Shown here piece by piece: positions 60,684 through 63,079 of a DNA stretch of 64,000 bases (the stretch's first letter is position 1; every line of letters begins with the position of its first letter). The position numbers were made by a program, and so were the translations under genes. The stretch comes from an uncultured Oscillospiraceae bacterium. Its GTDB lineage: Bacteria > Bacillota > Clostridia > Oscillospirales > Oscillospiraceae. Location of the stretch: the NCBI GenBank assembly GCA_944383165.1, contig CALWON010000004.1, forward strand, positions 1-64,000, in the 5' to 3' direction. Under the pieces are notes generated by a model that had not been told where the DNA came from, did not search any database, and saw only the letters and a list, made by a program, of their open reading frames with translations.

Positions 60684-60697
60684 AGTCGTAAGCGACT
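60684..60697. promoter_or_regulatory. Candidate MarR operator before the MATE gene
   Basis: AGTCGTAAGCGACT, the reverse complement of the site at 62137; arms AGTCG/CGACT around TAAG. It lies between the NmrA-like stop and the MATE ribosome-binding site (AAAGGAGG). Confidence 0.65.
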
Positions 60698-60704
60698 TAT
60701 TAGT

Positions 60705-61664
60705 TCAAAATAGATCACGCCAGTGGCTGACTTTATTTTCCCATACATAACGATACTGGTCTAATAAATCTTCCACCTCTAATGGCTTTCTTCCAGTCAG
60801 TAGTTCAACATCATGAGATACAACACCCATTTGCCCTTCTGAAATTCCAGCCTCATTGGTGATCATGTCATTGCTGCAAAATGGGACTGGGGACTGGGAG
60901 AAATTTCCATCTGTTGTTTCGGGAATATGCAATGCTTCTAAATAGGCTTTGAATTCCTGTGCATCCATGGGTTGATAGATGAAGGGGATTCCAGATTTTT
61001 CTGCAATCATAGTACAAATTTCTCTTTGACTTACTGGTTTTGTGCTAGTCAAATCATATGCTCTGTTTGGCTCTCCCTTACCCAAAAGTAAAGCGGCACC
61101 GCATCTTGCACTGTCATCTTTCGCAATGCTGGTCACTTTTCCTTCTCCAGCAGTTGTTCCCCAGATATTGTGACTGAGCATAGCTAGCATCACAGAGGTT
61201 GTAAGATAATTTTCCATATATAAATTATTTCGCATAATATTATATGGTATGCCACATTCTCTTAACATTGTTTCAGTAGCCCGATGATCAGGAAGTACAT
61301 ATTGATGGTATCCCTCTCTATCAGCACCGAAAAAAGATGTATAGGTGATATGCTCTACTCCAGCTTGTTTACATGCCTCAATTACATTTTTATGTTGTTG
61401 AACACGTTTGGGACCGTTGAGTATGCTGGAAATAAAGAATAATCTGTTTGCTCCACAAAATGTTTTTGACATGCTGTCTACATCATCATAATTTGCTTGC
61501 CTTAATGTAACCCCTTTAGACTCCCAAAGAGTTTTTTTCTTCTCTGGTATTCTGGACAGATTTGGGCAGGTAAAAATTAACTGCTCTGGGGAGACTGTAT
61601 TCAACATAGTTTCGGCAACACGTCCTGATAATTTTCCATCCACACCTGTAATTAGATACCTCAT
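60705..61664 (-). CDS. NmrA-like NAD(P)-binding protein (atypical SDR)
   Basis: This 319-residue protein has an N-terminal Rossmann segment (MRYLITGVDGKLSGRVAETML; GVDGKLSG replaces the usual GATGxxG), NRLFFISSILNGPKRVQQHKNVIEACKQAGVEHITYTSFFGAD and HRATETMLRECGIPYNIMRNNLYMENY, as in the NmrA/QOR2 family of NADPH-sensing or quinone-reducing proteins. It sits between marR and a MATE exporter with its own upstream palindrome, so it may be a detoxification or redox-sensing enzyme. Confidence 0.87.
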   Translation of the reverse strand: MRYLITGVDGKLSGRVAETMLNTVSPEQLIFTCPNLSRIPEKKKTLWESKGVTLRQANYDDVDSMSKTFCGANRLFFISSILNGPKRVQQHKNVIEACKQAGVEHITYTSFFGADREGYHQYVLPDHRATETMLRECGIPYNIMRNNLYMENYLTTSVMLAMLSHNIWGTTAGEGKVTSIAKDDSARCGAALLLGKGEPNRAYDLTSTKPVSQREICTMIAEKSGIPFIYQPMDAQEFKAYLEALHIPETTDGNFSQSPVPFCSNDMITNEAGISEGQMGVVSHDVELLTGRKPLEVEDLLDQYRYVWENKVSHWRDLF

Positions 61665-61678
61665 GTAGTTCCCCTTTC

Positions 61679-61690
61679 GTCGCTTACGAC
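61679..61690. promoter_or_regulatory. Candidate MarR operator before the NmrA-like gene
   Basis: GTCGCTTACGAC, matching the core of the sites at 60684 and 62137, in the 42-nt gap between marR and the NmrA-like gene. Confidence 0.65.
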
Positions 61691-61706
61691 CTATTTATGA
61701 AATCTT

Positions 61707-62117
61707 TTATTTTATGTTTTTTATGATTTGTGCAATCATATTGCCTAATTGTGTTTGTTGTTGTGCATCCAATCCCTGAAAGACACGACTGCTTATTTTT
61801 TCTATTTTTTCTTTGATGGCTATGGTCATCTTTTCACTCTTATTTGTAAGAACAATTTTTTTATATCGTCTATCAGAAAATAATGGTGTGGTATAAATCA
61901 AATTTTTTTCCTCTAGCCGATGCAAAATACTACTGACTGTGGGATGTGTCAACCCCAGACCGATTTCAATATCCTTCTGACAGATTTCCAGCTCTTTGTG
62001 CATACTCAAGTAGCCAATAACTGTTGCTTGAGTATATGTGATGTCTAATTCAGCCATTTCTTGATTTAAAATTCGTTCAATGGCTGTATTTAAAATCTTA
62101 AATTCCATAATGTCCAT
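61707..62117 (-). CDS. MarR family transcriptional regulator
   Basis: The 136-residue regulator has a MarR winged helix (YTQATVIGYLSMHKELEICQKDIEIGLGLTHPTVSSILHRLEEKNLIYTTPLFSDRRYKKIVLT) flanked by dimerisation helices. ATG 62117 (MDIMEFKILN) follows AAGGTAGGTGA; the longer frame from 62180 runs through the palindrome and is rejected. The palindrome 20 nt upstream implies autorepression. Confidence 0.92.
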   Translation of the reverse strand: MDIMEFKILNTAIERILNQEMAELDITYTQATVIGYLSMHKELEICQKDIEIGLGLTHPTVSSILHRLEEKNLIYTTPLFSDRRYKKIVLTNKSEKMTIAIKEKIEKISSRVFQGLDAQQQTQLGNMIAQIIKNIK

Positions 62118-62136
62118 ATAATCACCTACCTTATTT

Positions 62137-62150
62137 AGTCGCTTACGACT
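62137..62150. promoter_or_regulatory. Candidate MarR operator before marR
   Basis: AGTCGCTTACGACT with TTATTT/TATTTT flanks; the fullest of three copies. Confidence 0.68.
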
Positions 62151-62273
62151 TATTTTATCAGAAAAGAAGCTTCGTGTCAAGAGCCTAAACTACCTCTTGA
62201 CATTTTGGGAAGCAAAAAATTGCTATATTTTCCGATAAAAATGAGTTTTGTGTTTATTGTGAAGTTAAATATA

Positions 62274-62319
62274 GAATGACTGGCACTGTCTAGGTTATCC
62301 CAAACAGTACCAGTCATTC
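62274..62319 (-). terminator. Hairpin downstream of the V-ATPase operon
   Basis: GAATGACTGGCACTGT pairs with ACAGTACCAGTCATTC (16 bp, one mismatch), loop 14 nt, 71 nt after the subunit D stop on the minus strand. The U tract is weak. Confidence 0.6.
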
Positions 62320-62389: not shown

Positions 62390-63079
62390 CTACTCCTCGG
62401 ACTCCATTGTGGCTCTTAGGGTTTCCTCCCGTCGCTCCTCAATGGCTTCCTTCAGAAGCATATCCTTCACCTTCATCAGTCGAATGGTGTTGGCACGCTC
62501 GTTTTCGTCCAGCTTCATGGTGATATACTTGATGTTTTCCTGCATCTGAGGAATTTTTACATACTCCAACGCATTGACACGGCGACGTGTTTTTTCGATT
62601 TCCTCAGCCAGCAGTTGACTGGTCTTTTCAATTTCTGCCAGTTTCAGCATATCTTGAAAGACACGGGACAGGGCATCCACAGCATCATCCAGTTCACCAC
62701 TGGTCTGTGCAAAACCATAGGGGTAAACTTCGCCGGGGTCCTGACTTTTGGTGTGGAAACGATACTGAGGCACATCCACAGACATGACATTCTGGAATGT
62801 CATATCTAGTTCTACTGACTGTTTGGGGTAGAGCAGGGACTGTTCCAATATTTCCGGGGACATAAGGGCAGAAGCCACTGTGAAGGAACTGTGAGCACGC
62901 ATCAATTCCTCCTCTACACGCTTTCTCAATGCCCGATTTTCACGCACCACATCCATAAACTGCTTCATCAGCTCGTCACGCTTGTCTTTCAACAGCTTGT
63001 GACCACGCTGGGCAGTTTTTAAGCGACCCTTGAGACGGGTCAATTCCATTCTGGTGGGGTTAATTGTTGAGGAAGGCAT
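62390..63079 (-). CDS. ntpD: V-type ATP synthase subunit D
   Basis: Subunit D is the central rotor shaft of V/A-type ATPases. The 229-residue protein has the family opening NPTRMELTRLKGRLKTAQRGHKLLKDKRDELM and a long coiled coil at both ends (EIEKTRRRVNALEYVKIPQMQENIKYI). ATG 63079 follows GGAGGGAG. It is 14 nt after subunit B, the usual A-B-D order. It is the last gene of the operon. Confidence 0.95.
   Translation of the reverse strand: MPSSTINPTRMELTRLKGRLKTAQRGHKLLKDKRDELMKQFMDVVRENRALRKRVEEELMRAHSSFTVASALMSPEILEQSLLYPKQSVELDMTFQNVMSVDVPQYRFHTKSQDPGEVYPYGFAQTSGELDDAVDALSRVFQDMLKLAEIEKTSQLLAEEIEKTRRRVNALEYVKIPQMQENIKYITMKLDENERANTIRLMKVKDMLLKEAIEERREETLRATMESEE

Follow-up and report, generated by a model that had tools for sequence, protein, structure and literature searches.

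Predicted MarR operators confined to a marR-NmrA-MATE gene cluster of an uncultured Oscillospiraceae bacterium

In the 64,000-nucleotide stretch of DNA analysed here (hereafter 'the window'), which comes from a gut-type Clostridia genome, marR, NmrA-like and MATE exporter genes form a small drug-exporter cluster in tandem on the minus strand, and a short palindrome precedes each of them. We propose that this palindrome is very probably the operator of the locally encoded MarR protein: the copy at the marR promoter (operator 1) would repress the whole unit, and the copies in the two gaps between the genes (operators 2 and 3) would tighten that repression. Judged from sequence, this is a real and locus-specific set of predicted operators, well supported and ordinary in kind, that is, a MarR protein controlling its own exporter as in MepR-MepA. 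The original prediction had likewise read the palindromes as a MarR operator set, and this reading is now well supported by (i) the restriction of the sites to the locus, (ii) their overlap with a promoter and its expected start site, (iii) their conservation in an orthologous cluster, (iv) the matching pairs of sites in further relatives, and (v) MepR being the solved structure nearest to the MarR protein of the window. The features are, in order of transcription:

62175..62180, minus strand: -35 box TTGACA of the marR promoter (11/12 matches, 17-nt spacer)
62152..62157, minus strand: -10 box TAAAAT of the marR promoter (from the promoter scan)
62137..62150, no strand: predicted operator 1, AGTCG-CTTA-CGACT, over the expected marR transcription start; on the minus strand, with flanks, ATAAGTCGTAAGCGACTAAAT; same position in the orthologous cluster L006
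61707..62117, minus strand: marR gene, 136 aa, ATG start (Pfam MarR_2 37 bits, cut-off 27)
61679..61690, no strand: predicted operator 2, core GTCGCTTACGAC, in the marR-NmrA gap; equivalent site in L006
60705..61664, minus strand: gene for an NmrA-like NAD(P)-binding protein, 319 aa (Pfam NmrA 52.5 bits; nearest solved structures YtfG, 2zcu, and triphenylmethane reductase, 2jl1)
60684..60697, no strand: predicted operator 3, AGTCG-TAAG-CGACT, in the NmrA-MATE gap; equivalent site before the MATE gene in L094-L101
59248..60666, minus strand: gene for a MATE-family exporter, 472 aa (Pfam MatE 119.6 bits; TIGR00797 over cut-off; nearest solved structure BH2163, 4lz6/5c6o)

Three palindromes at a single locus

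The three copies read AGTCGTAAGCGACT (60684-60697), GTCGCTTACGAC (61679-61690) and AGTCGCTTACGACT (62137-62150), with the core GTCGCTTACGAC or its complement starting at positions 60685, 61679 and 62138 of the window. Each core copy is located in the gap 5' of one gene of the cluster, and the palindromes end 14-20 nt 5' of the start codons, ahead of ribosome sites of the AGGAGG, GGGG or GGTAGG type. The arrangement before all three genes, just ahead of their ribosome sites, is thus as originally predicted, except that the middle copy extends no further than its 12-bp core, the adjoining bases being unpaired. The full form of the operator is about ATAAGTCGYNNRCGACTTAT, and its 4-nt centre differs in orientation among the copies (CTTA versus TAAG).

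That the palindrome had been seen nowhere else in the window extends to the genome as a whole: its 2,382,048 bases (2.38 Mb) contain the exact core three times rather than dozens of times, always at this cluster, and a single copy with one mismatch is found at an unrelated site. A widespread repeat is thereby ruled out, and since simple arithmetic yields an expectation of only ~0.3 exact cores per genome, and ~2e-5 in the three gaps, chance is excluded as their origin. A degenerate motif has 55 matches in the rest of the genome, fewer than the 226 of a reversed control; these resemble background and do not support a second regulon member, and the most promising of them (C19) falls within a coding gene.

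The proteins of the cluster

The winged-helix domain of the MarR protein is recognised by PF12802 (37 bits, cut-off 27) and PF01047 (26.5 bits, cut-off 24.6), and the protein falls far short of the SlyA equivalog model (51 bits, cut-off 120). Quinone- or thiol-sensing MarR proteins of the MhqR, YodB or OhrR type have a conserved sensing residue or cysteine. The MarR of the window has one cysteine only, in EICQKDIE, which is also present in the relatives L006, L008, L009 and L053 and is replaced by Phe in L050 and by His in L094; the redox or quinone sensing suggested earlier is hence unsupported for this MarR. It is plausible, as a guess, that a quinone-type compound is a substrate of the NmrA-like enzyme. 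A search for plasmid carriage found no plasmid closely matching the cluster.

Operator 1 and the marR promoter

On the minus strand, the -35 and -10 boxes are separated by 17 nt and followed, 2 nt further on, by GTCGTAAGCGAC, that is, operator 1. The expected transcription start of marR falls within the palindrome, which is accordingly predicted to be a classic start-site operator, and a palindrome placed 2 nt past the -10 box of a promoter with 11/12 matches is what an autoregulatory MarR repressor gene would carry. Upstream, a 20-pair terminator-like hairpin is found on the minus strand at 62274-62319, between the gene for V-type ATP synthase subunit D (62390-63079) and the marR promoter; it likely ends the ATPase operon and insulates the marR cluster.

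The palindromes might instead act as RNA hairpins on translation or RNA processing, as each copy can form a stem of 4-5 bp with a 4-nt loop just ahead of the ribosome site, and a mismatch in the orthologous cluster L006 (GTTG) retains a G-U pair. However, because transcription is expected to start inside the palindrome, in the window as well as in L006, the marR transcript would lack the 5' arm and should not contain the complete hairpin. In addition, the CTTA/TAAG flip of the centre is what a DNA site contacted by a symmetric dimer would be predicted to show, and Rfam yielded no match. We therefore reject the hairpin reading as very unlikely, and consider operator 1 to be a putative repressor operator, since the promoter 2 nt upstream places the expected start under the palindrome.

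Conservation of the sites in related loci

An orthologous cluster, L006, is present in an uncultured Lachnospiraceae MAG, its MarR and NmrA proteins being 64% and 82% identical to those of the window. Its marR gene is preceded by TTGACA-17-TAAAAT-AA-GTTGTAAGCGAC, that is, by the same layout and spacing, although the palindrome has one mismatch (GTTG) and the 17-nt spacer is unlike that of the window, and its marR-NmrA gap carries a second site, AAGTCGCAAGCGACTG. No MATE gene follows in L006. Beyond this cluster, a protein search of 394 genomes of the order yielded no further close MarR, and a class-wide search for NmrA a single lone homologue devoid of marR. The latter (L051, in G839; 55% identical, with neither marR nor MATE) adjoins a gene whose product resembles a LysR-type regulator, with TetR-like genes nearby.

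More distant relatives likewise carry sets of sites. In L008 and L009, where MarR is ~50% identical and an MFS exporter is encoded by the next gene, sites of the ATCGYATGCGA type are found at the marR promoter (ATCGCATGCGAG) and before the MFS gene (ATCGCATACGAG or ATCGTATGCGAT); L050 (MarR 50% identical, MFS) has GTTGTATGCGAC at the marR promoter and GTCGTATACGAC just after marR. The marR-MATE pairs L094-L101 are from the same bacterial family as the window, and L094 from the same genus. In L094-L099 and L101 (MarR ~30% identical; MATE 52% identical for L094), GTAACTAGTTAC-type sites mark both the marR promoter and the stretch immediately ahead of MATE, and share the outer flanks ATARGT...ACTTA with the sites of the window. 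The sites thus match within each locus and vary in concert from one locus to another, which is the pattern predicted if all of them are bound by the local MarR.

Across 72 marR loci (the window and L006-L093), the broad motif GTMRYNNRYKAC is present upstream of marR in 35, against a mean of 0.47 in shuffles preserving base but not dinucleotide content; this enrichment is not independent, because those upstream sequences had themselves helped to define the motif. The better controls are the downstream flanks (14/72; shuffled mean 0.36) and the marR gene bodies (1/72; shuffled mean 1.61). Position 58 (query numbering) of the recognition helix follows the same division, with the motif accompanying 35 of the 51 proteins having His at this position and none of the other 21 in statistics that ignore relatedness, and His58 may set the GT...AC ends of the operator.

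Since the pairing of MarR with these sites is drawn from sequence, a regulator encoded elsewhere might be envisaged to use them. Yet they occur at the marR-NmrA-MATE locus only and accompany MarR in L006, and every related MarR locus has its own, differing version of a matching site. The other MarR loci found in the genome are devoid of GTCGCTTACGAC and hold just two imperfect matches to the broad motif. We consider such a regulator highly improbable.

Operators 2 and 3: possible roadblocks or local repression

The original prediction held that each gene would be controlled separately. This is only partly supported: a promoter is present at the operator of marR, but a scan for sigma-70 consensus promoters detected none in the NmrA and MATE gaps. 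The best promoter scores at the gap operators are 8/12 (NmrA) and 7/12 (MATE), and the relatives' gap sites, likewise devoid of a consensus promoter, score 5-9/12, all of which is comparable to random positions (mostly 5-8/12). In contrast, every scored marR-promoter site of the window and its relatives has a promoter of 10-12/12 ending 0-8 nt before the site.

A separate promoter repressed by each gap operator, so that the three genes are transcribed and controlled separately, would resemble mepA of S. aureus, whose operator overlaps its own -35 and -10 boxes (PMC3617543); the operators directly precede each ribosome site, and AATAA/AATAG at the start of the gap operators could act as a weak -10. 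Given that the scores are those of background, we regard this arrangement as rather unlikely. As a recognisable promoter accompanies the operator of marR alone, the gap sites are likelier to block read-through than to control promoters of their own, a small share being left for other roles; this preference for a roadblock builds on the negative outcome of a scan from which weak promoters could escape.

In all eight marR-MATE relatives (L094-L101), a stable hairpin, usually with a T-run, is located between marR and the gap operator; it is of the GGCAGTG...CACTGCC type and stands directly before the operator, mostly with the T-run following. This suggests termination coupled to MarR binding in these relatives. 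No such hairpin is present in the gaps of the window. It is thus tempting to speculate, if only tentatively, that many marR-exporter operons of this group possess a two-step lock consisting of an operator at the promoter and a promoterless roadblock in the gap, which in the marR-MATE relatives follows a hairpin and T-run and would give repressor-assisted termination before the exporter gene, with His58 possibly setting the GT...AC ends of the operators. DNA looping between operators is not supported, since no constant helical phase emerges from the centre-to-centre spacings (~459 and ~994 bp in the window, 463 in L006, ~482 in L008/L009, and 539-561 in the marR-MATE relatives).

Comparison with known systems

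In mepRAB of S. aureus, a MarR repressor gene likewise precedes a MATE exporter gene and operators precede both. According to reviews, the target of MepR at its own gene is an inverted repeat over the mepR start site, immediately after the -10 box, as predicted here for operator 1, and MepR binds further sites at mepA (PMC3617543, PMC8698293). The window shares this order of genes and operators, and differs in that an NmrA-like gene with an operator of its own is inserted, the operator sequence is not that of MepR with its GTTAG motif, and the gap operators lack the recognisable promoter that the mepA operator overlaps. Moreover, the MATE protein is closer to BH2163 than to MepA and scores 94.5 bits with the NCBIfam MepA equivalog model, far under the curated cut-off of 850.

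The marR-MATE pairs L094-L101, of which a literature search found no description, resemble the window in the placement of their palindromes and in their flanks, but have AA/TT in place of CG/CG as the inner dinucleotide, no NmrA gene, and the hairpin before the gap operator. SlyA belongs to the MarR family as well, and some related marR genes carry GTAGCNNGCTAC-type sites that resemble the SlyA box, TTAGCAAGCTAA, from which the window operator is distinguished by its CG inner step.

Proposed mechanism and implications

We infer that a MarR dimer bound to operator 1 would cover the -10 and start-site region of the single strong promoter, and would thereby repress the entire tandem unit, including marR itself. 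Dimers on operators 2 and 3 would tighten the repression of the NmrA-like enzyme and the exporter, most likely by blocking polymerase that has escaped from the marR promoter and less likely by repressing weak local promoters. Induction would ensue when a ligand, probably one that the exporter or the enzyme accepts as substrate, releases MarR from all three sites.

For this uncharacterised exporter cluster, the palindromes provide a complete set of predicted operators that can be tested. The layout recurs across the relatives, in which the marR promoter has an operator and each gene further downstream is preceded by another, the gap sites appearing to be promoterless. If these gap sites are indeed roadblocks, they would explain how exporters encoded in tandem operons can be tightly silenced.
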